Shown piece by piece: positions 1 through 42,018 of a stretch of 64,000 nucleotides of DNA. How positions within the stretch are numbered: position 1 is the stretch's first letter; the number at the start of each line of letters is the position of its first letter. The stretch is from an uncultured Tropicimonas sp. GTDB taxonomy: Bacteria > Pseudomonadota > Alphaproteobacteria > Rhodobacterales > Rhodobacteraceae. The stretch is from the NCBI GenBank assembly GCA_947495685.1, contig CANLZY010000002.1, positions 1-64,000 of the forward strand. The letters are read 5' to 3'. The position numbers and the translations under genes are program-made. The notes below the pieces were generated by a model. The model searched no databases and was not told where the DNA came from. It worked only from the letters and a program-made list of their open reading frames with translations.

Positions 1-92
1 CTGGCCAACTCGCTGACCGTCTGCTCGCCCGTCACAGCCTCCAACGCGACCTTGGCCTTGAACTCCGGGGGGTGTTGTTTCCGTTTCGACAT
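1..92 (-). CDS. IS3-family transposase OrfA, N-terminal part
   Basis: The reverse strand encodes a start codon at 92 followed by MSKRKQHPPEFKAKVALEA and continues off the left edge. This is the typical N-terminus of the helix-turn-helix OrfA of IS3-family elements, which binds the element ends and is joined to OrfB by frameshifting. An AAGGAG ribosome binding site lies just upstream of the ATG. Only about 30 residues are visible, so the subgroup and intactness cannot be judged. Confidence 0.75.
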   Translation of the reverse strand, partial: MSKRKQHPPEFKAKVALEAVTGEQTVSELA

Positions 93-174
93 CTCTGATC
101 TCCTTCGTGTTGAAGATCGGCAGACAACAAATCGTAGCTTGCGTCAGTGTCCGGTTTTCGGGGGGTAGCTCCCA
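93..174 (-). mobile_element. Terminal leader of the IS3-family element with its probable inverted repeat
   Basis: Non-coding leader between the orfA start and the likely outer end of the IS3 element. Read on the minus strand, 174-148 begins TGGGAGCTACCCCCCGAAAA and continues CCGGACA, which fits an IS3-type end (5'-TG, C-rich terminal repeat). Immediately beyond it, IS1182 transposase coding sequence resumes (PDHSTF), which places the insertion junction at about 172-175. The other end of the element lies outside the window. Confidence 0.5.
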
Positions 175-1315
175 GACCATTCCACTTTTCCAAAGAACCG
201 GCACGGCCGGTTTCGCGAGAGCGAGCTTCTTCGGCACCCTTTCGAGGATGTGGTTGCCTGCTGCATTGCCGAGGGGCTGGTCAGCGGGCAGCGCTTTGCC
301 ACTGACGCCAGCTTGATTGAAGCGGATGCCAACAAGCAGAATTCGACGCCGAAGGAAGAGTGGGATGCAGCGCAGATCGATCCGGAGGATGCGCCGAGGG
401 CTGTGAGGGAATATCTTGATGTCCTCGATGACGCAGCCTTCGGCGCGGCGTCGCCGGTTGAGCCGAAGTTCACCTCGCATTCTGATCCGGCCAGCCAGTG
501 GAGTGAGGAGGGTCAGCGAATGATCCGGGGGATCATTCGCCCGACGAACGCACGTAAGGGCCCGGAATTCTTTTCCTGTTCGGACAACTACCTGATCGAC
601 ACCGACCATGGCGTCATTGTCCCCTCTCGTGCATGTAAACATGCACTGCCGGGCAGTGGATGTCGAAGCCTCGCGGTCAATCCGCCAAGCCAAAGTCGGC
701 GCGACGCGCACCATGCTGGAGCGGGTCAAGGACCGGTTCGAGCTGCATCCCGAGAGACTGATTGCCGACACGGCATACGGATCCGCGCCAATGCTCGGTT
801 GGCTGGTCGATCACAGGATCGCTCCGCACATTCCCGTTCTGGATAAATCCTGGCGCAACGACGGCACCTGGACCCGCGCAGAGTTCGAGTGGGACGCCGA
901 GAGCAATCAACACACCTGCCCCGAGGGCCATACGCTCAAGCAGTTCCGCCGGAACTACTCGGACCCGAACCGCGGACCGACTGGCAAGGACGTAGCCAAA
1001 TATCAGGCGCTGAAACACACCTGCCTGGCCTGTCCATCCAAGTCAAAATGCTGCCCGAATGCCGATGCTCGCAAGATCACCCGCGAAGAACATGAAGACG
1101 CCCGTCAGGTCGCACGCGACATCGCGAAAACCAGGCAATACGAGATCTCGATGAATCTCCGGATGAAGGTCGAGATGCTCTTCGCGCATCTCAAGCGCAT
1201 TCTTGGCCTCAACCGCCTCCTATTGCGCGGTCCGAACGGTGCCAGCGACGGATTCCTCCTCGCCGCAACCGCCCAAAACCTCAGGAAACTGGCAAAGATC
1301 CTTCCTGCACCGTAG
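169..1315 (+). pseudogene. IS1182-family transposase, 5'-truncated and frameshifted
   Basis: Two frames together give a recognisable IS1182-family DDE transposase. The first frame, from 169, encodes PDHSTFPKNRHGRF, then a DASLIEADANKQ block and YLIDTDHGVIV. The second frame, from 659, encodes DVEASRSIRQAKVGATRTML, then ADTAYGS, a cysteine cluster (CLACPSKSKCCP) and the terminal KKVEMLFAHLKRIL-like block ending in AQNLRKLAKI. The N-terminal third is missing because of the IS3 insertion, and a 37-bp insertion at 622-658 shifts the frame. The gene cannot make an active transposase. Assignment rests on motif recognition. Confidence 0.85.
622..658. repeat. 37-bp insertion with two inverted repeats inside the IS1182 transposase
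   Basis: Between the codons for DHGVIV and DVEAS, which are normally adjacent in this family, 37 extra bases are present. They contain GTGCATGTAAACATGCAC (629-646, 8-bp arms, 2-nt loop), then CTGCCGGGCAG (646-656). The length (3n+1) causes the frameshift. It could be a miniature element or an excision footprint. Confidence 0.5.
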
Positions 1316-1410
1316 AAACCACAAACCGCCTGACAAGAAAGGCGCTTGCGCCGTCCGAAAGTCCCCACTTTGTGCACGAGCGACACCTTTTTTCAACGAA
1401 ATCGGCACTT
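1316..1410 (+). mobile_element. 3' end of the IS1182-family element
   Basis: Non-coding tail after the transposase stop. TTTTTTCAACGAAATCGGCA (1387-1406) resembles the conserved terminal repeat sequence of IS1182-type elements and is the likely right end. The matching left repeat is not in the window, so the exact boundary is inferred. Between here and 1587 no gene is seen. Confidence 0.4.
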
Positions 1411-1587
1411 AGGGGCCGTTCGTCCATACCGCAGCAATGAACCTGTACCGCATTCATGCCTGTCTCCGCCCTGAACGCAGAGTTGAGACGACCGCGAGGC
1501 TGGCCCTTGCAAATCGAGCGGCGGCCGTCGGCACTCTCTGATGGAGAGCCATTGCATCCTTGCTGCAGCAGGATGCCATTGCCGCCA

Positions 1588-2364
1588 TCATACGGTTACT
1601 TTCATTCCGCCATCGACAAAATAGGTGGAACCGATCGAGTAGCTCGCGCGGTCGGAACACAGGAAGACAAAGAAATCCGCCAACTCCGCGGGCGTGCAGA
1701 ACCGCTTGATCGGCGCGTGTTCGTCCGCGACGTCCTGTAGATATCCCTGCCAGTCGCCACCGCTTTCGGCGGTCAGTTCACGTGCCGTGTTTTCCCAGTC
1801 GGGCGTTTGAACCAGTCCGGGATTGACGCAATTCACACGAATGTTCTTGCCGACCAACTCGGTCGCCAGGGTACGGGAGAACATCATCAGCGCTGCCTTG
1901 GTGACGTTGTAGATGGGTTCATACCAGAGTGGTTGGACGGCGCAGATCGAGGCATTGTTCAACACAACACCACTGCCGCGAGACTCCATGTACGGAACGA
2001 CACCGCGCGCCAGGCGGACCGCAGCCATCACGTGCAGGTTCCAGTAGTCCTGCCATTTCTCGTCCGGCGCTTCCATGATCGTCTCATTCGACCCGGTGCC
2101 GGCATTGTTGATCAGAATATCGACCCCGCCAGCATCCGCGACTGCCTTCATGACACTGGCGATGCCATCGACGGTCGCGACATCGCCAACAGCCGGCATC
2201 GCAAGCTCTCCAATGGATTTGCAAGCTTGGTCCACCTTGTCGGCGTGACGCCCGTTGATCAGGACACCGACGCCCTCGGCGGCAAGCCCCTTGGCGACGG
2301 CAAATCCTATACCGTCCGAACTTCCGGTTATGAGCGCGGTCTTGCCGGTGAGATTCAGGTCCAT
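1588..2364 (-). CDS. Short-chain dehydrogenase/reductase (SDR)
   Basis: A 258-residue classical SDR, an NAD(P)-dependent cytosolic oxidoreductase of unknown substrate. The cofactor motif TGSSDGIG lies at about residues 13-20, NNAG at about 86-89, the catalytic serine in NNASI at about 139, and YNVTK (Tyr152, Lys156) is intact. The ATG at 2364 is preferred over the upstream in-frame start at 2391 because AAGGAGGAATCAA precedes it directly. The gene stands alone between the IS1182 remnant and a broken integrase, so it may be cargo of a decayed island. Substrate cannot be predicted. Confidence 0.85.
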   Translation of the reverse strand: MDLNLTGKTALITGSSDGIGFAVAKGLAAEGVGVLINGRHADKVDQACKSIGELAMPAVGDVATVDGIASVMKAVADAGGVDILINNAGTGSNETIMEAPDEKWQDYWNLHVMAAVRLARGVVPYMESRGSGVVLNNASICAVQPLWYEPIYNVTKAALMMFSRTLATELVGKNIRVNCVNPGLVQTPDWENTARELTAESGGDWQGYLQDVADEHAPIKRFCTPAELADFFVFLCSDRASYSIGSTYFVDGGMKVTV

Positions 2365-2545
2365 TTGATTCCTCCTTTTTCGAGACGTCACGGGCTGTGA
2401 ATCTTCGACCTCCCGACCGCGCCACTTCCGTTAACAGGCCGCACCCGGTCAGCGCGATCTTCACAACACTCCTTATGCCGCTGTCGCTCTTGTACTTCGA
2501 AAAGGCAATGGTCGCCTTGTCGCAAGTGTCGTGGACCCTTGTGCG

Positions 2546-3110
2546 TCAGGAAGCATCCGTCTCAAGCGGGTTAAGAACGGGTGTTCGTTGCGACTTGAAC
2601 GAATGGCGGTTCTGGGCCGAAAGCGACGAGCATGAGACGAGTGTATTTTCAGACGCAGCGTTGTGGATGGTCATCGAATTATGATCAATGACATCGATCA
2701 GATTGACGGGCCCCAGCTTTTTGTTCTCCATGGCCTCGGCAAAAGCGAGAGTATCCTGCAACCAGACGCCGAGATATCGCTCGGTGCTATCCATCTTGGT
2801 GTGCCCAAGCAGCAGCACCACTCGCAAGCTTCCCGTCTTGCGATTAATATCGGTTTCCTGGGTTCGACGCATCGAGTGGATTCCAAACGACGTCGGTTTC
2901 AGGCTGATCGATTTCATCCATTCTCCGGCAAGTCGGCATACTGGCGCGTCGGGATACGCAGTCTCTGGTGGAACCGCCCCGGCCAAAGGTTTTTGGACCC
3001 GACCATCTATGGGGCAGCCAGCCACGGCGAGACTCCCTTCCTGATCCCCTCGGAGATTTCGAACCGAATGGGTTTGTTCGTCCTGCTCTGGATGATGGAA
3101 GCGCGTTCCT
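2546..3110 (-). pseudogene. Tyrosine recombinase/phage integrase, C-terminal fragment with frameshift
   Basis: The reverse strand encodes the C-terminal catalytic half of a tyrosine recombinase in two frames. The upstream frame gives ERASIIQSRTNKPIRFEI up to a stop at 3007. The next frame, open from 3025, gives SFGIHSMRRTQET (His-x-x-Arg box) and LLGHTKMDSTERYLGV (His plus the nucleophile Tyr). The N-terminal half is missing and a frameshift lies at about 3007-3025. About 55 unrelated-looking residues follow the normal end, so the original stop is probably lost. It marks a former integrative element, and no attachment site or tRNA is visible nearby. Confidence 0.75.
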
Positions 3111-3191
3111 TGATGATGCCAATTGCCGTCGTTGCGGAACTGTCGATTTGCTTCGCCGTTCGTTCGCTAGGCCGAGCCTCGCCGCCTCGGC

Positions 3192-4550
3192 CTATTGTCC
3201 TGCGGACCACCCGGCCGCCCGAAGCTGTGCAAGGACCTGTTCGGCATGTTCCGGATACCGATAAAACCGCGCGACTGCGGCATCCGGGCGGAAGGCGGGC
3301 CAGGTTGCCTGCAAGTCTTCGAGGAGGGCCCTGGCGGTGCCGGTGTCGCCGAGAGCCTGGCTGGCGGCGGCCTTGTACATCAAGGTCAACTCGCTCACCG
3401 GACCACCCAGTTGTATCGCGGCATCAATAGACGAAATCGTGGCCTCGTAGTCTCCAAGGTGGAAGTTCGCGACACCATGGATGTTAAGATGGGCCGGGTG
3501 GCGGCGCTTGTCGTTCCTCGGGCGTGCGGGGGCCGAGGCCTCGGCGGATTCTTCGAAGTGCCCAGTCATTCCGAGGATGACACCGTGGAAATCAAGCGTC
3601 TTGCCATCCAGATCGTCCAGGGAAGCCCCGAGGCGGCTCAGATCCACGGCTCGATCATAGTCGCCATTCACAAACGCAACCCAGGCCGCTGCAGATTGGG
3701 ACCAGCCGCTGCGCGGGGCGAGGTCGATGGCCTTGTCGGCGAACTCCTCGGCCTCGCCCAGAAGCTCGCCGCGGATCTTCGCTGTCGGAGCGAGCAGCGC
3801 AAGGGTCGCGAGGCTGTGGGCGGCACCGGCGAACCCATCGGAGAAGCTCGGATCGATCCGGATGGCTTCCCTGTACATCGAGATGGCGAGTTTCTGGTGT
3901 TCGGCATCTGCGATCGGGAACAACAATCCGCTGGCCTGTTCGGCGAGATTGGCCGCCTGAAGGGTTGCCGTGGATTTCTCTGCAAGGGCGGACCGTTCCA
4001 ACTGGCTTCGGACGGCGTGATCGGAAGGCGGCATCCTCTCCGGTGACATCGGCGATCGGGCGAGCAATGCACCGGCCAGAACCGCCAGCGTCAGGGTGCC
4101 CCCCGCAACCAGCAACCATGGAAGATCGCCCCGAGGCCGGGGGCGGGCTTCCCGAGCCTCGACTTCGGGACCCGGACTTGCTCCTTTTGGTTTCATGACT
4201 TCGAAGCGTGGTGCATATCCACCGCTGTCGATATGCACCCTGATGGGATCGTCGGCGCCTTCGCCCTCGAAATACTCGGAGAGCTTGCGCCGCAATCTGC
4301 CGGCATCGACGCGAACGATGCTGTCGCTGCCGTAGTCTGGTTCCCGACCGTAGACATCGTGGGCGATGGTCTTGCCGGCGATGAGATGCGCCCGACCAGA
4401 GAGGCTCTCCTCGATCACGTAACTCAGAAACGCCCTCAACCGGTCGGCATTCGCGAAGGTTGTGCTTGCGAGAACGCGATCGAGTTCCAGCCGGATCGAA
4501 CTGTCTCGCTGCACGTTGGCCGAGTCCACGTTCTTGTCCATCTCCGCCAT
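3192..4550 (-). CDS. Membrane-tethered regulator: winged-helix-like N-terminus, one TM helix, TPR C-terminus
   Basis: A 452-residue protein in three parts. Residues about 15-118 form the conserved domain with RLRAFLSYVIEE, GKTIAHDVYGR and SIVRVDAGRLRRKLSEYF, found at the N-terminus of many proteobacterial TPR proteins and thought to bind DNA. A single hydrophobic helix spans about 144-165. An alanine-rich TPR-like domain occupies about 180-450 and would lie in the periplasm. No clear ribosome binding site precedes the ATG, and Met4 is an alternative start. The gene faces away from an arylsulfatase, with two palindromes in the shared intergenic region (4588-4627). A role in controlling the sulfatase genes is inferred from that layout. 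Confidence 0.7.
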   Translation of the reverse strand: MAEMDKNVDSANVQRDSSIRLELDRVLASTTFANADRLRAFLSYVIEESLSGRAHLIAGKTIAHDVYGREPDYGSDSIVRVDAGRLRRKLSEYFEGEGADDPIRVHIDSGGYAPRFEVMKPKGASPGPEVEAREARPRPRGDLPWLLVAGGTLTLAVLAGALLARSPMSPERMPPSDHAVRSQLERSALAEKSTATLQAANLAEQASGLLFPIADAEHQKLAISMYREAIRIDPSFSDGFAGAAHSLATLALLAPTAKIRGELLGEAEEFADKAIDLAPRSGWSQSAAAWVAFVNGDYDRAVDLSRLGASLDDLDGKTLDFHGVILGMTGHFEESAEASAPARPRNDKRRHPAHLNIHGVANFHLGDYEATISSIDAAIQLGGPVSELTLMYKAAASQALGDTGTARALLEDLQATWPAFRPDAAVARFYRYPEHAEQVLAQLRAAGWSAGQ

Positions 4551-4587
4551 CTGACTGGAAAACCTTTTCGGTCAGAGCATTACGATA

Positions 4588-4627
4588 GGTTACACCGCCG
4601 GTGTAACGTCGATTATACGGTATAACC
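4588..4627. promoter_or_regulatory. Paired palindromic operator, four half-sites
   Basis: GTTACACCGCCGGTGTAAC (4589-4607) is a perfect palindrome with 9-bp arms. TTATACGGTATAA (4613-4625) is a second with 6-bp arms. Their centres are 21 bp apart, two helical turns. The outer halves GGTTACACCG and CGGTATAACC are inverted copies with one mismatch, so the region can be read as four related half-sites. It lies 38 bp upstream of the TPR regulator and 38 bp upstream of the small gene at 4665. Confidence 0.6.
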
Positions 4628-4664
4628 CTTGTTCCGAAAATCAAGGGCGACGCAACAATCCACG

Positions 4665-4913
4665 ATGAGTGTAGAAAACGAACCGGAGCACCCCGAAGCA
4701 CGGAGCGCAGAGGAATTTTTCCCGAAGTGGCGGGAAGAGATCCAGCATCTGCGCAGAGCCAGTCCGATCTTCGAAGAGATATGCAGCGACCTCGAACTGG
4801 TGGCAGGACTGCTCCGCGACGAGGGAACCGGTGACAGGGCGGCGAGCGAATGCCTTGAGGGGCTGAAGGACGAAATCCGCGGCGCTCTGACGCGAAACAC
4901 TGGAAATGCGTGA
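4665..4913 (+). CDS. Small acidic hypothetical protein (82 aa)
   Basis: I do not recognise a named family. The product is rich in Glu and Leu, predicted helical and soluble, with segments EEFFPKWREEIQHLRRASPIF and EEICSDLELVAGLLRDEGTG and no signal peptide or TM segment. The start MSVENE was chosen because upstream in-frame residues look non-coding, although no clear Shine-Dalgarno sequence is present. Its position directly behind the paired operator and in front of the arylsulfatase suggests co-regulation. A short hairpin (4927-4946, 7-bp stem) follows the stop. Confidence 0.55.
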   Translation: MSVENEPEHPEARSAEEFFPKWREEIQHLRRASPIFEEICSDLELVAGLLRDEGTGDRAASECLEGLKDEIRGALTRNTGNA

Positions 4914-5019
4914 CCTGCACTGGCTATGGTCTTTCAGCCAAGACCAACGGGGGAGCAAAGATGACGACAGGCAACAGAGCTACCCCTAAATCTAATCAAT
5001 CGACGCTACAGGGAGATAC

Positions 5020-6654
5020 TTGCCAACGACGGATCGACTTCAGCCCTTCGGTGGTTGGCTCGCCGCAACAACCGTTTCGCTTGCCGTGATGGCAGGCGGG
5101 GCGGCCACAGCTCAGACGGCAGAAATTCCGGGCGGTCTTGTTCACGACGCCGAGTTCCAGCGCATTTGGGAGCAAAACGGCGACCGCTGGGCCGCCGAAG
5201 ACGTGGAGGTGGCCGCGAAACTCGCCGAGCTTGAGGCCAAGTTCGGCAAGAAGCCGAACATTATCCACATCCTGTGGGACGACATGCGCTATGGCGCAGT
5301 TGGGCATCGGCTCCTGACCGACATTTCCGGCTATGACGCGCCCAACCTGGAGCAGATGGCGGAGGAAGGCATGTCCTTCACCCGGATGTACACCGAGCCT
5401 TCCTGTACGCCCACGCGGGTCGCCGCCGCTACCGGACGGCTTGCCGTGCGCTCGGGCATGGTCTTCCCGATCTTCCCGATTCACCGCATGGGTCTGCCGG
5501 GCTCGGAGGTGACCATTGCCGAGGTTGTCGATGACACCTATCACACCGGCTTCTTCGAAAAGGCCCATTTCGGCGATCAGGAAGAAGGCTTCGTGACCAA
5601 TCAGGGCTGGGACGAGGCGATCTTCTCGCTCTACAACCAGTTCGCCGGCCAGATGTTCAACTCCAATGCTGAAGATCAGGGCTTCGCTGTTGCCTACAGC
5701 CCGGATGGCTACGACAAAAAGTATTTCTTTGACGACAGCTTCCGTCCGCTGGAGTGGATGTGGACAGTTCAAGGCGTCGAAGGGGGTGAGAACAAGGAGT
5801 TCTCGACCCCGAACTCGGCCGAGGAATATGTCGAGGCCAATATGCGGATGTGGGACGCGACGAAGGATTTCGTGACCCGGCACGCCGACAGCGACAAGCC
5901 GTTCATGCTGCAATGGTGGCCGAACGTCTACGAAGTGTCCGATCAGGACGCAAACCGTCCGTTTACGACCCAGCATGCCACCTCGACCGCCGAGAGCGTC
6001 AAGAAGATGGATGCCAAGATCGGTGAACTCTTTGTCATGCTGGAAGAGCTTGGCATTGCCGACAACACCCTCGTGATCGCCATGGCCGACAACGGCCCGA
6101 TGGAGGCAATCCACCCCGAGACGGGTCAGAACGGCTTCTTCCGCGGTGGCAAGAACGACGTGACCGAGGGCGGCATCCGTGTACCCGCCTTCGCCAAGTG
6201 GCCCGGCGTGATCGAGCCCGGCTCGGTTGCGGGCGACATCGTGCATGTTTCGGACCTGTTCAACACCTTCGCGCGGATCTCCGGCCGCTATGACCAGATC
6301 CCGACGGATCGCGTCATCGACGGCATCGACCAGACGGCCCTGTTCGTGAAGGGCGACACGCATGGGCGCCGGGACTATGTGTTCACCTACAAGGGTGCCA
6401 CGATGGGCTCGATCGTGAAGCAGCAGTTCAAGCGGCTCCTTCCGGTGGGACCGGGCGCTCTGGCCGGTGCAGAGTTCTTCGATCTCTACAAGGACCCGCG
6501 CGAGGAGCATCCGCTCATGGCCGAGTTCCTCTGGGCATGGGCTCAGTTCGACGCCATGAAAGCGCGGCATGATGCTCTGATCGCGGAATACCCGCATACG
6601 CCGGTCGCTCGCGGCGAGCCCTATACCGGCGTGATCCGGATCGCAGACCAGTAG
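5020..6654 (+). CDS. Periplasmic arylsulfatase
   Basis: A 544-residue type I sulfatase that hydrolyses sulfate esters. A Sec signal peptide covers about residues 1-32 (hydrophobic LAATTVSLAVMAGG, then ATAQT). The metal-binding ILWDDMRYG (Asp87, Asp88) and the sulfatase signature SCTPTRVAAATGR (Cys129) are present. In this family the Cys is converted to formylglycine, but no maturation enzyme gene is visible here. A TTG start is chosen because GGGAGATAC lies just upstream and the ATG at 4961 is in another frame. Sulfated aromatic or algal compounds are plausible substrates. Control by the divergent TPR protein is inferred. Confidence 0.9.
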   Translation: MPTTDRLQPFGGWLAATTVSLAVMAGGAATAQTAEIPGGLVHDAEFQRIWEQNGDRWAAEDVEVAAKLAELEAKFGKKPNIIHILWDDMRYGAVGHRLLTDISGYDAPNLEQMAEEGMSFTRMYTEPSCTPTRVAAATGRLAVRSGMVFPIFPIHRMGLPGSEVTIAEVVDDTYHTGFFEKAHFGDQEEGFVTNQGWDEAIFSLYNQFAGQMFNSNAEDQGFAVAYSPDGYDKKYFFDDSFRPLEWMWTVQGVEGGENKEFSTPNSAEEYVEANMRMWDATKDFVTRHADSDKPFMLQWWPNVYEVSDQDANRPFTTQHATSTAESVKKMDAKIGELFVMLEELGIADNTLVIAMADNGPMEAIHPETGQNGFFRGGKNDVTEGGIRVPAFAKWPGVIEPGSVAGDIVHVSDLFNTFARISGRYDQIPTDRVIDGIDQTALFVKGDTHGRRDYVFTYKGATMGSIVKQQFKRLLPVGPGALAGAEFFDLYKDPREEHPLMAEFLWAWAQFDAMKARHDALIAEYPHTPVARGEPYTGVIRIADQ

Positions 6655-34109: not shown

Positions 34110-34123
34110 TTGATTAAGATCAA
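34110..34123. promoter_or_regulatory. FNR box between hemN and fnrL
   Basis: TTGATTAAGATCAA matches the FNR/FnrL consensus TTGAT-N4-ATCAA perfectly. On the hemN side a -10-like TATACA follows after 16 bp, the geometry of an activated promoter. On the fnrL side the box lies 14 bp before the start codon, a position more suited to repression or autoregulation. Confidence 0.85.
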
Positions 34124-34137
34124 GAAGGCGCGCGCAG

Positions 34138-34884
34138 ATGGAGATGCAGGAAATCGAACTGACCCACATGGACTGTATTGACTGTCCGATCCGACATCGG
34201 GCGGTGTGTTCGCGATGTGAATCTGACGAGCTGAACCTGCTTGAGGAAATCAAGTACTATCGGACCTTCGACGCCGGGCAGACCATTGCCTGGACGGGGG
34301 ACAAGCTCGATTTCGTCGCCACGGTTGTCAGCGGCATCGCGACCCTCAGTCAGACGCTGGAGGACGGGCGGACCCAGATGGTTGGCCTGCTGTTGCCATC
34401 CGATTTCATGGGGCGGCCGGGCCGCGAGATGGCCTCCTATGATGTGACCGCGACCACCGAAGTCCTGATGTGCTGTTTCCGCCGACGTCCCTTCGAGGAG
34501 CTGATGCGCAATACGCCGCACATCGCGCAGCGGTTGCTGGAGATGACTCTGGACGAGTTGGACGCAGCGCGGGAATGGATGCTGCTGCTCGGCCGCAAGA
34601 CCGCGCGCGAAAAGATCGCCAGCCTGCTTGCCATCATCGCACGGCGGGATGCCTCGCTGAAGTTTTCCAAGACCGGCGGTGCAATGGAGTTCGACCTTCC
34701 GCTGACCCGCGAGGCGATGGCGGACTACCTGGGGCTGACGTTGGAAACGGTCAGCCGACAGGTATCGGCCTTGAAGCGCGAGGGCGTCATCGAACTGGCC
34801 GGAAAGCGCCACATCAACGTGCCGGATTTCGAACGACTGATGCAGGAAACGGGCGACGATACCGACGGCGGCATGCTCGTCTGA
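34138..34884 (+). CDS. fnrL: FnrL, oxygen-sensing Crp/Fnr transcription regulator
   Basis: 248 residues. N-terminal cysteines in DCIDCPIRHRAVCSRC (about 12-27), with Cys further on, fit [4Fe-4S] ligation. A cNMP-binding-like beta-roll, a long dimer helix (EMTLDELDAAREWMLLLGRK) and the HTH TREAMADYLGLTLETVSRQVSALKREG follow; E-x-x-S-R is the FNR-type recognition element. Under low oxygen it activates hemN, the cbb3 oxidase and related genes, and FNR boxes precede those genes here. Start could also be Met3. Confidence 0.93.
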   Translation: MEMQEIELTHMDCIDCPIRHRAVCSRCESDELNLLEEIKYYRTFDAGQTIAWTGDKLDFVATVVSGIATLSQTLEDGRTQMVGLLLPSDFMGRPGREMASYDVTATTEVLMCCFRRRPFEELMRNTPHIAQRLLEMTLDELDAAREWMLLLGRKTAREKIASLLAIIARRDASLKFSKTGGAMEFDLPLTREAMADYLGLTLETVSRQVSALKREGVIELAGKRHINVPDFERLMQETGDDTDGGMLV

Positions 34885-38956: not shown

Positions 38957-39160
38957 ATGGATACATACTCCCTGACGCGTCAATTTGCAGACAGCTGGAT
39001 GCTTCTGTTCATGACGCTCTTCTTCCTTGGTGTCGTTTTCTGGGCGTTTCGCCCAGGAAGCGCCAAGGAGCATCGCGACAGCGCCAACATTATCTTCCGC
39101 CACGAAGACTCGCCTGACGAGAATGCGACGGAAATGAACCCGAAGGAGGTTCGGGAATGA
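38957..39160 (+). CDS. ccoQ: cbb3-type oxidase subunit IV (CcoQ)
   Basis: A 67-residue single-span protein ([20 protein letters not shown]) with a charged C-terminal tail. CcoQ stabilises the interaction of CcoP with the core. GGAGCCAGGGGGC precedes the ATG; its stop overlaps the ccoP start (ATGA), so the order is ccoNOQP. Confidence 0.92.
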
Positions 39161-40050
39161 GCAAACAACCCGTAAAGAAGAAGAAGGACGAGGTCGGCAC
39201 GACTGGTCACAGCTGGGACGGGATCGAGGAGCTGAACAACCCGATGCCGCGCTGGTGGCTGTGGACGTTCTATGGCTGCGTGATATGGGCGCTGATCTAC
39301 ACGGTGCTCTATCCTGCATGGCCGTTGGTGAACGGTGCAACGGCCGGGCTGCTGGGCAAGTCTACCCGGGCTGACGTGGCCGCCGAAATCGTCCGGTTCG
39401 AAGATGCCAACGCGGCCATCAAGGCGAAACTGGTGGAAACTGAATTGCCGGATATCGCCAAGGACCCGGAACTTCTCAGCTATGCCCAGAACGCCGGTGG
39501 AGCTGTGTTCCGGACCTGGTGTGCGCAGTGCCACGGTGCCGGCGCTCAGGGTGCGCAGGCGGCGGGGTATCCCAGCCTGCTGGACGACAGCTGGCTCTGG
39601 GGCGGAACGATCGAAGAGATCCACACGACGATCAGCTACGGCATTCGCCACAACGACGATTCCCGGTTCGGCGACATGCTCGCCTTTGGTCGGGACGAGT
39701 TGCTGACGGAAGACGAGGTCGCACAGGTGGTTGCCTATGTTCAGAAAATCTCGGATCAGGAACATGACGCGGCCCTGGCTGCTCCTGGCGAGACCATCTA
39801 TATGGACAACTGCGCGTCCTGCCACATGGAAGACGGCAAGGGTGAAATCTCGGTCGGTGCGCCCAATCTGACCGATGCCATCTGGCTCTACGGTGGTGAC
39901 GACGTCACCCTGACGGAGACCATTTGGAACGGGCGTGGCGGCGTGATGCCGCCGCGTGGTGGTGCCCCGGAATCCGCGGTCGACGAGGCCATGGTCCGTG
40001 CGGTCTCTACCTATGTCCACGGCCTTGGTGGTGGCGTTCAGTCCGAATAG
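39157..40050 (+). CDS. ccoP: cbb3-type cytochrome c oxidase subunit III (di-heme)
   Basis: 297 residues. The cytosolic [17 protein letters not shown] motif precedes one TM helix ([19 protein letters not shown]), then two cytochrome c domains with WCAQCHG (122-126) and CASCHM (219-223). It accepts electrons from soluble or anchored cytochromes. The 4-bp overlap with ccoQ indicates coupled translation. A strong terminator follows at 40079. Confidence 0.95.
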
Positions 40051-40078
40051 TAACGGACGGTTCTCCGCGCAATCACAG

Positions 40079-40111
40079 CGCCTCGCCCCTCATGCATCCA
40101 GGGGCGGGGCG
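40079..40111 (+). terminator. Intrinsic terminator of ccoNOQP
   Basis: CGCCTCGCCCC pairs with GGGGCGGGGCG (11 bp, one G-T wobble) across an 11-nt loop; TTCTTCGTTTCT follows. Confidence 0.75.
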
Positions 40112-40200
40112 TTCTTCGTTTCTGGAGGTGATTCCAGTGTGAGCTCTTCCGTCACGTCATGGCGGCCATGCGTACGAAAAGGCGCATCTTATATTAGCAT

Positions 40201-40214
40201 TTGATCTGGATCAA
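40201..40214. promoter_or_regulatory. FNR box without an adjacent coding gene
   Basis: TTGATCTGGATCAA is a perfect consensus site. It lies after the ccoNOQP terminator and 365 bp before ccoG, which has its own box at 40499. A -10-like TAGAAA (40238-40243) lies downstream in the plus direction. Confidence 0.8.
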
Positions 40215-40244
40215 AGTGTGAGGCCACGCTTGCTCGTAGAAATA

Positions 40245-40390
40245 GGTCAACGGCGACGATGTTTCAAATCAAACGACACATCATCGCCCCAACAACATAG
40301 CGTTTCCAGAGGGTGTCCTCCCCTGGAAGATACGCCTCGGCTCTCCGTCCTGTTCGCGCGTTTCCTAGGAGAGTCGGGGCGCCTTTATGT
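40245..40390 (+). ncRNA. Candidate FnrL-dependent small RNA or structured leader
   Basis: No open frame with protein-like composition is seen in 40215-40498. Two hairpins are present. TTCCAGAGGG / CCCCTGGAA (about 40310-40328) has one bulged base. CGCCTCGGCTCTCC / GGAGAGTCGGGGCG (40333-40346 with 40368-40381) is a 14-bp stem with two G-T wobbles, followed by CCTTTAT. The start is inferred from the FNR box and the -10-like element. The second hairpin could terminate a transcript of about 130-140 nt. Confidence 0.35.
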
Positions 40391-40498
40391 CCACATCCCA
40401 AATATGCATTCACAAAGCCGCGCGCGACACGCGGGCGCAGGGTCCGCGATCCGGTTTTTTGCTAAGTGTTGGTGGACAGGAGGAACGCGCGCATTCTA

Positions 40499-40512
40499 TT
40501 GACACATGTCAA
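40499..40512. promoter_or_regulatory. FNR box upstream of ccoG
   Basis: TTGACACATGTCAA is a full dyad of the FNR type, 66 bp before the ccoG start. CATACA (40534-40539) could be the -10 element. Confidence 0.8.
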
Positions 40513-40578
40513 AGACGCCTTTTCCCGGCCCCCCATACAACGGGCGAATTGTGAACCCCTAGCCATCGGAGAGCTTCC

Positions 40579-42018
40579 GTGAGCGATACTGGCAGCCAGC
40601 CTGAACAGCTTTATTCGGCCCGTGAGCCGGTGTTTCCCCGCAAGGTCAGCGGAAAGTTCCGCAACCTCAAGTGGGCGATCATGATCGTCACGTTGGGCAT
40701 CTACTACCTGACGCCCTGGATCCGGTGGGATCGCGGCCCGAACCTTCCTGATCAGGCCGTTCTGGTCGATCTCGCCAATCGGCGATTCTTTTTCTTCTGG
40801 ATCGAGATCTGGCCGCACGAGTTCTATTTCGTGGCCGGCCTGTTGATCATGGCGGGGTTGGGGCTGTTTCTGTTTACCTCGGCCCTTGGTCGGGTCTGGT
40901 GCGGATACACGTGCCCCCAAACGGTCTGGACCGACCTGTTCATCCTTGTCGAACGGTGGATCGAAGGGGATCGGAACGCGCGACTGCGCCTGCACCGTCA
41001 GGAAAAGATGGATGCTCGAAAACTCCGGCTGCGTGCCACGAAGTACGTGAGTTGGTTCCTGATCGCGCTGGCGACGGGCGGTGCCTGGGTATTCTATTTC
41101 ACCGACGCGCCTACCTTGCTCAAGGACCTGGTCACCCTGAATGCCAGCCCGGTTGCCTACACGACCATCGGTGTGCTGACCGTGATCACGTTGATCTTTG
41201 GCGGGTTCATGCGGGAGCAGGTCTGCATCTACATGTGCCCCTGGCCTCGGATCCAGGGCGCGATGATGGACACGGACACGCTGACAGTTGGCTACCGGGA
41301 CTGGCGCGGAGAGCCGCGTGGCAAGCACCGCAAGAAGGGCGTCGAAAGCGACCAGGGCGATTGTATCGACTGTATGGCCTGTGTGAATGTCTGCCCGATG
41401 GGCATCGACATCCGCGATGGTCAGCAGTTGGAATGCATCACCTGTGCGCTGTGCATCGACGCCTGCGATGACATCATGGACAAGATCGGCAAGCCTCGCG
41501 GTCTGATCGACTACATGGCCCTCAGCGACGAGATAAGCGAACGGGCTGGGGCCACGCCGAAATCGGTCTGGAAACACATCTTCCGCCTGCGCACGGTCCT
41601 CTACACGACACTATGGACCGCGGTTGGTGTCGGACTGGTGGTGATGCTGTTCGTCCGTCCGGATATATCGGCCACCGTGCACCCGATCCGTCAGCCGGTC
41701 TTTGTGACCATGTCCGACGGTACGATCCGCAACAGCTATGACTTTGGCCTGCGCAACAAGCACGGTGAGGATCGTAGATTCCGTGTCACGCTCAAGGTCG
41801 ATGAACAGGATCTGCGCCTGACCGTCGAGGGGACCCCTTACGAGAGCTTCATGGTGCCGTCCAACAGCACCATGAAACAGCGGATCTATGTGTTGGCTCC
41901 CAAGGGCAGCGAAGCTGCCATCGCCAATCGGACCGACATCCGTTTCTGGATCGAGGACTTGTCGAATGGCGAGCGGGTGCATAAGGATTCCACGTTCAAC
42001 GGAACCGGAGCACGCTGA
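40579..42018 (+). CDS. ccoG: cbb3 oxidase accessory protein CcoG (FixG family ferredoxin)
   Basis: 479 residues with about five TM helices and a cytosolic 2[4Fe-4S] ferredoxin domain: DCIDCMACVNVCPMG and ECITCALCIDACDD. A C-terminal Ig-like domain (RFRVTLKVDEQDLRLTVEG...) follows. CcoG acts as a copper reductase in cbb3 assembly. The start is GTG with CGGAGAG upstream. First gene of ccoGHIS. Confidence 0.94.
   Translation: MSDTGSQPEQLYSAREPVFPRKVSGKFRNLKWAIMIVTLGIYYLTPWIRWDRGPNLPDQAVLVDLANRRFFFFWIEIWPHEFYFVAGLLIMAGLGLFLFTSALGRVWCGYTCPQTVWTDLFILVERWIEGDRNARLRLHRQEKMDARKLRLRATKYVSWFLIALATGGAWVFYFTDAPTLLKDLVTLNASPVAYTTIGVLTVITLIFGGFMREQVCIYMCPWPRIQGAMMDTDTLTVGYRDWRGEPRGKHRKKGVESDQGDCIDCMACVNVCPMGIDIRDGQQLECITCALCIDACDDIMDKIGKPRGLIDYMALSDEISERAGATPKSVWKHIFRLRTVLYTTLWTAVGVGLVVMLFVRPDISATVHPIRQPVFVTMSDGTIRNSYDFGLRNKHGEDRRFRVTLKVDEQDLRLTVEGTPYESFMVPSNSTMKQRIYVLAPKGSEAAIANRTDIRFWIEDLSNGERVHKDSTFNGTGAR

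Follow-up and report, generated by a model that had tools for sequence, protein, structure and literature searches.

FnrS of the enterobacteria is reportedly a small RNA that FNR activates under oxygen limitation. Here we describe an element that may act as a small regulatory RNA and that in principle would work like FnrS; it lies between ccoNOQP and ccoG, which belong to two sets of genes for the cbb3 oxidase, a respiratory enzyme used at low oxygen, in a stretch of 64,000 nucleotides from an uncultured Tropicimonas sp. (contig CANLZY010000002.1, positions 1 to 64,000), the whole of which we call the window. Its architecture differs from that of FnrS, and in most of the relatives examined it sits at the 3' end of an mRNA. 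Rfam gave no match in the window at the gathering score, to the FnrS family or any other, and a search of 40040-40580 up to E = 10 returned one weak, unrelated match. The copies at mRNA 3' ends resemble SorX of Rhodobacter sphaeroides, as passages of PMC6238624 portray it, in being structured RNAs that close an mRNA and end in a terminator. This position, at the end of a presumed mRNA, is occupied by 74 of 118 copies and not by the window copy, which has a predicted promoter of its own; the control proposed here would also be by oxygen, rather than by oxidative stress as for SorX.

The element is the HRC-8-4 motif, reported by Brewer et al. in 2021 with 160 representatives (PMC8632094); this identity rests on place, taxonomic range and form. 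As set out in the relevant passages of that paper, HRC-8-4 belongs to the order Rhodobacterales, is located between ccoNOQP and ccoGHIS, sometimes with hvrB inserted, and is a terminator stem with a conserved loop. The same location (in the window and its relatives), the same restriction to Rhodobacterales and the same terminator stem with conserved loop nucleotides are found here. The authors, in those passages, speculate about a riboswitch, or about binding by HvrB, whereas our analysis adds two layouts of the motif and, for one of them, an FNR promoter of its own. This rule, by which the motif is placed according to its FNR link, appears to be new. The string "fnr" is absent from the main text of PMC8632094, the name HRC-8-4 was found in no other open-access paper searched, and no FNR link for it was found in the open-access literature (subscription papers and supplements were outside the scope of the search). 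Likewise, no word starting with cco occurs in the main texts of PMC4809877, PMC8625941, PMC7866481 and PMC6238624, supplements again being outside the scope. Paracoccus sRNA-29 (denR), also considered, is another element, since the part of PMC6686037 that describes it places it antisense to Pden_0526.

Anatomy of the predicted small RNA

We consider it likely that positions 40201-40387 of the + strand constitute a small RNA gene under FnrL; the previously unexplained motif is real and conserved, and it is probably FnrL-driven. An earlier note on this DNA had read here a perfect FNR box past the ccoNOQP terminator, a -10-like TAGAAA and a separate FNR box for ccoG, and all three readings stand. 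The final gene of ccoNOQP, ccoP (39157-40050, + strand; TIGR00782, 379 bits), is followed by a terminator-like hairpin with an ordinary short loop and a T-rich stretch behind it (about 40077-40113, + strand; -27.4 kcal/mol). Past this hairpin lies the FNR box assigned to the small RNA promoter, TTGATCTGGATCAA (40201-40214, + strand), a perfect match, and 22 nucleotides beyond its end starts the putative -10 element TAGAAA (40237-40242). All nine genus genomes, among them that of the window, have the identical box, then a gap of 22 nucleotides and then TA. Class II FNR-dependent promoters have the box centered at -41.5 from the start. With the box center at 40207.5 and TAGAAA at 40237-40242, this general rule gives the class II distance that would be expected of an FNR-dependent small RNA, and so a transcript start near 40249; taken with the position of the terminator, the predicted RNA would span 40249-40387 on the + strand, about 139 nucleotides. 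The FNR box of ccoG, TTGACACATGTCAA (40499-40512, + strand), has two mismatches to TTGATNNNNATCAA, yet it lies within the degenerate pattern TTGAYNNNNRTCAA. The 5.6-Mb genome has 41 matches to that pattern, versus three to the reversed pattern, and four of the 41 lie inside 6.4 kb of the cco cluster (at 34110, 36496, 40201 and 40499).

The earlier note had counted two strong hairpins, one of them with a 14-bp stem. The 14 pairs are there, in the hairpin that we call P3 (40333-40381; 40333-40346 with 40368-40381), and all 14 are changed on both sides among the copies; the hairpins, however, number three. P2 (40303-40329) has a stem that is kept through covariation while its sequence is free, and a further hairpin precedes it in the fold at 40252-40288. 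The covariance search suggested for 40240-40390 succeeds for the 3' part, about 40288-40389, and not for this first hairpin: all eight other genomes of the genus match, solely within 40287-40448 and thus outside nearly all of it, so that it is not conserved.

Folding of the + strand of 40240-40400 gives -58.4 kcal/mol (z = -4.46), a value that none of 200 shuffles equals, versus z = -2.47 on the - strand, where 3 of 200 shuffles are as good. The G-U pairs of P3 would be mismatches on the opposite strand, which likewise points to an RNA from the + strand. In an alignment of 83 copies, all 24 pairs are changed on both sides (a count that 5 of 500 shuffles also reach), 96.1% of cells are paired, versus 38.9-55.3% after sliding by one to three columns, and the covariation score is reached by none of 500 shuffles. 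RNAalifold returns the same 24 pairs from the same alignment, which had been fitted to the covariance model and therefore favors the structure. The P3 loop is nearly invariant over 40349-40365, with its core UGUUCGCGC at 40351-40359: across 119 copies, no position of the segment C(-2) to G(+8) around GUUCGCGC deviates in more than one row, and in 30 weaker-scoring genomes at most one of the 30 deviates at any position of GUUCGCGC.

The octamer GCGTTTCC is present twice in the window, in the 5' arm of P2 (40300-40307) and in the P3 loop (40358-40365), and it is seen in eight of the nine genus genomes. An alternative antiterminator structure formed through the octamer, GCGUUUCC, was rejected because the octamer is absent, by eye, from P2 in other genera. 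A loop dimer through CGCGCG was also discarded, the palindrome being broken in several weaker-scoring copies.

Attached and detached copies

The two layouts of the motif differ in their link to FNR. We compared 118 copies, from the nine genus genomes and from the 108 best-scoring of the 174 other matching family genomes, one of which enters twice. A copy was called attached when it lay within 140 nucleotides of the ccoP stop, and a match to TTGAYNNNNRTCAA located 40-330 nucleotides before the loop was taken as its own FNR box. Seventy-four copies are attached, with the loop 48-136 nucleotides past the ccoP stop, and none of them has an FNR box of its own; such a box is present in 43 of the 44 remaining copies, the exception being a tandem copy shortly past ccoP. 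Without the window's genus, the box is found in 34 of 35 detached copies versus 0 of 74 attached ones (Fisher p = 1.8e-27, with kinship ignored). In a quick tree of 103 CcoG proteins, in which 43 of 100 branches are open, the best tree has 19 changes of the layout label, and starred branches have at least 7. When kinship is taken into account, all seven independent pairs that differ in layout on starred branches differ likewise in the box (p = 0.0156). This coupling, the covarying stems and the near-invariant loop lend good comparative support to what the earlier note had proposed, a small RNA driven by FnrL.

The same coupling is seen in 30 weaker-scoring genomes, hand-picked from the family and order scans, where none of the 22 attached copies has the box and seven of the eight detached copies do, the second of two tandem copies being the exception. 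In a named set, which overlaps the main one, 0 of 52 attached copies and 26 of 41 others have the box among the matches listed. The 15 boxless others, among these listed matches, comprise 11 outside Rhodobacterales, three second tandem copies and one at a locus edge. Those 11 are loop-bearing hairpins that score 17.2-27.6 bits with our second covariance model, versus 61.1-79.9 bits for three Rhodobacterales loci.

Both kinds of copy occur together in locus L054 and in Shimia thalassica (L159, L186), where an attached copy without a box is accompanied by a second copy with one. The first copy of L054 (1587-1687), attached, without a perfect box and with a strongly altered loop (TGCTTGCAGGATTTCC), was left out of the 118; it lies beside an intact second copy that has its own FNR box, and is perhaps a product of decay after duplication.

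Spacing within the promoters also recurs beyond the window. At a gap of 22 nucleotides, position 2 of the -10 element is A in 37 of the 43 boxed copies and TA is present in 19; without the window's genus, as counted from the list, the figures are 28 and 10 of 34. Other gaps from 14 to 30 nucleotides give A in at most 27 and TA in at most 4 of the 43. In ten of the boxed copies the predicted start falls 36-46 nucleotides before the loop, that is, about at P2; therefore we set the working RNA at P2 plus P3.

Distribution of the motif

A covariance model of the core detected the motif in 176 of 394 genomes of the window's family. The second model matched 201 of 390 genomes drawn from the order, those listed all belonging to the same family, and 3 of 385 genomes drawn from the class, again all within it. 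A ccoN match is present in 361 of the 394 family genomes (345 above the curated cut-off) and, by eye, in 175 of the 176 genomes with the motif; the remaining one, G280, is 73% complete.

Some genomes have two to four motif matches, several of them in tandem (L112 in G193, at 2501-2784; L071 in G324; G528, G531, G620 and G501). G193 has three copies, 92 nucleotides apart, the third, middle one of which was left unscored, and G531 has four matches.

Locus layout

The gene order in the window is hemN (-), fnrL (+), a gene on the - strand that we read as universal-stress-like, ccoNOQP (+), the motif stretch, and ccoG and ccoI (+). The likely regulator, fnrL (34138-34884, + strand), is identified by the FnrL equivalog NCBIfam NF045989 (457 bits versus a cut-off of 300), and ccoG (40579-42018, + strand) by TIGR02745 (539.7 bits). 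Between the predicted small RNA and the FNR box of ccoG, at 40424-40438, the sequence GCGACACGCGGGCGC is found, by eye, in all nine genus genomes. It resembles the RegA/PrrA consensus and could perhaps provide a second redox control of ccoG.

Neighboring genes and alternative explanations

The published speculation corresponds to a terminator-embedded riboswitch or protein-binding terminator, in which a ligand or HvrB at the P3 loop would open the terminator and allow read-through into ccoG or hvrB. The neighborhood lends this some plausibility, as ccoG is the first recognized downstream gene, picked mechanically, in 65 of 119 copies and a LysR-like gene is in 36, on the same strand (one example was confirmed as LysR), and a switch of this kind could be supplied by an FNR promoter. 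In five of the 119, however, the first downstream gene is on the opposite strand (DUF2270 in L044, the first copy of L054, L097 and L102; RtcB in L025), a count from which L002, L117, L120, L110 (antisense to cco genes) and L090 (a pick without relatives) were kept out. An FNR box of its own is present for ccoG in 106 of 109 loci, so that ccoG has no need of the motif's promoter, and the existence of tandem and second copies is a further difficulty for a switch. So is L110 (G016, 1-5093), a locus that lacks ccoNOQP and ccoG but has the motif, still with an FNR box (with TATTAA), together with fnrL, the stress gene and ccoI. What is constant across loci is the upstream FNR link, direct or via ccoNOQP, followed by the P2-P3 RNA, and not the downstream gene, a pattern that suits a small RNA acting in trans better than a switch in cis. 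The motif shares with terminator-embedded riboswitches a conserved loop within a terminator stem, but it has no constant co-oriented downstream gene, and its own FNR box is coupled to detachment; we regard a switch as unlikely. The variable and sometimes opposite downstream gene and the separate box of ccoG equally disfavor the earlier note's alternative of a regulated leader linking the two operons. Serving specifically as a regulated 5' leader of ccoG is a very improbable role: the two share a strand, and in the nine genus genomes similarity to CcoG begins 185-225 nucleotides past the motif, but a terminator hairpin and the second FNR box intervene, and ccoG often stands beyond a LysR gene, at a distance of more than 1 kb.

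The position directly after ccoP in 74 of 118 copies would suit a simple terminator of ccoNOQP, or an element stabilizing its 3' end, that has no independent role. Mere termination does not need the conserved loop, however, and the detached copies have their own FNR boxes. Moreover, the ccoP end is readable in 39 detached loci, and 37 of these have a hairpin with TTT behind it within 90 nucleotides past the stop (shuffles, 1 of 39), one of these hairpins, in L054, being the P2 of the attached copy; the motif is thus not needed to end ccoNOQP in such loci. This stem-plus-TTT test was used since an earlier test of hairpin energy was uninformative (38 of 39 reach -15 kcal/mol or lower, but so do 32 of 39 shuffles). 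Taken together, we judge the plain-terminator explanation quite improbable. A short protein is scarcely credible, in agreement with the earlier note, which saw no protein-like frame. Open reading frames can be called mechanically (94 amino acids at 40218-40502; 50 at 40313-40465), but the distances from box to core in the nine genus genomes, the window's own included, range over 104-124 nucleotides and not in steps of three, so that no frame is kept between them, and in relatives changes are compensated between paired positions of the stems.

Target searches

Allowing up to three mismatches, the complement of the loop as a 17-mer has 381 sites in the nine genus genomes versus 302 for the control; as an exact 10-mer it has 464 versus 540 (both counts include the nine motif copies). 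Inspection by eye of 150 sites, from 30 automatically chosen loci over the nine genomes plus 120 from three genomes, revealed no start-codon site common to three genomes; matching places were occupied by nine pairs of sites and a single group of three, mostly in coding sequence. In the start region of ccoG, complementary 7-mers are found in 58 of 108 loci, whereas shuffles average 16.2 and the reversed loop gives 19 (2 of 300 shuffles reach the observed number), and complementary 9-mers number 16 versus 1.2; the duplex energy is reached by 5 of 100 shuffles. Twenty of 34 CGCGAAC sites are located about 40 nucleotides inside ccoG, where the letters are largely dictated by the conserved peptide AREP, and for this reason we do not count the excess as evidence; ccoG may nevertheless be a target.

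At the center of loci L324/L360 and L351/L441, an exact 10-mer complementary to the loop stands just before the following start codon in two genus pairs. These sites are weak candidate targets, and their letters also encode Arg-Glu-Gln.

Discussion

The reading that we favor for the window, an FnrL-driven small RNA, can be put as a sequence of events. Low oxygen would activate FnrL, and FnrL, in the manner of a class II activator, would bind the box at 40201; a transcript starting near 40249 would end at the P3 terminator near 40387, and its working part would be P2 and P3, roughly 80 nucleotides. P3 would serve both as terminator and as the display of the near-invariant single-stranded loop, whose most likely role is the binding of targets in trans, by base pairing or by way of a protein. 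For the majority of the other motif genomes examined, the same RNA would be the 3' end of an FnrL-driven ccoNOQP mRNA, presumably released by processing.

Several points weigh against this reading. The loop-complement searches of the nine genus genomes found no convincing target, and 186 of the 361 family genomes with ccoN are without a detected motif, though strict filters lose weak ones. The invariance of the loop is partly a product of finding and anchoring the copies by the loop, and hence is somewhat overstated. As for termination, the U run behind P3 in the window (40384-40386, CCUUUAUG) is short, and TTT follows the P3 stem in only 73 of 118 copies (27 of 118 at one control place). Finally, Crp/Fnr proteins other than FnrL may recognize FNR boxes too: according to passages of PMC4263372, CrpK of R. 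sphaeroides has sites in common with FnrL and is bound upstream of rdxBHIS. The same passages report FnrL sites to which no gene was assigned, two of which are at small RNAs.

Beyond the window, it is possible, and we propose it tentatively, that the motif is an RNA serving the oxygen response family-wide, with its own terminator loop as the regulatory site, and that FnrL control has been secured by two interchangeable means, as the 3' end of ccoNOQP mRNA or through an FNR promoter of its own, the one having replaced the other at least seven times. The UGUUCGCGC loop would then be a seed or a protein-binding site across much of Rhodobacterales, coupling expression of the oxidase to a post-transcriptional response. 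In this way, a published orphan motif with a conjectured riboswitch role becomes a testable FnrL-dependent small RNA. The family would also offer a natural series, with a single RNA placed now at an mRNA 3' end and now in a stand-alone gene while its presumed control stays unchanged. If the proposal is true, the FnrL regulon gains a post-transcriptional arm.
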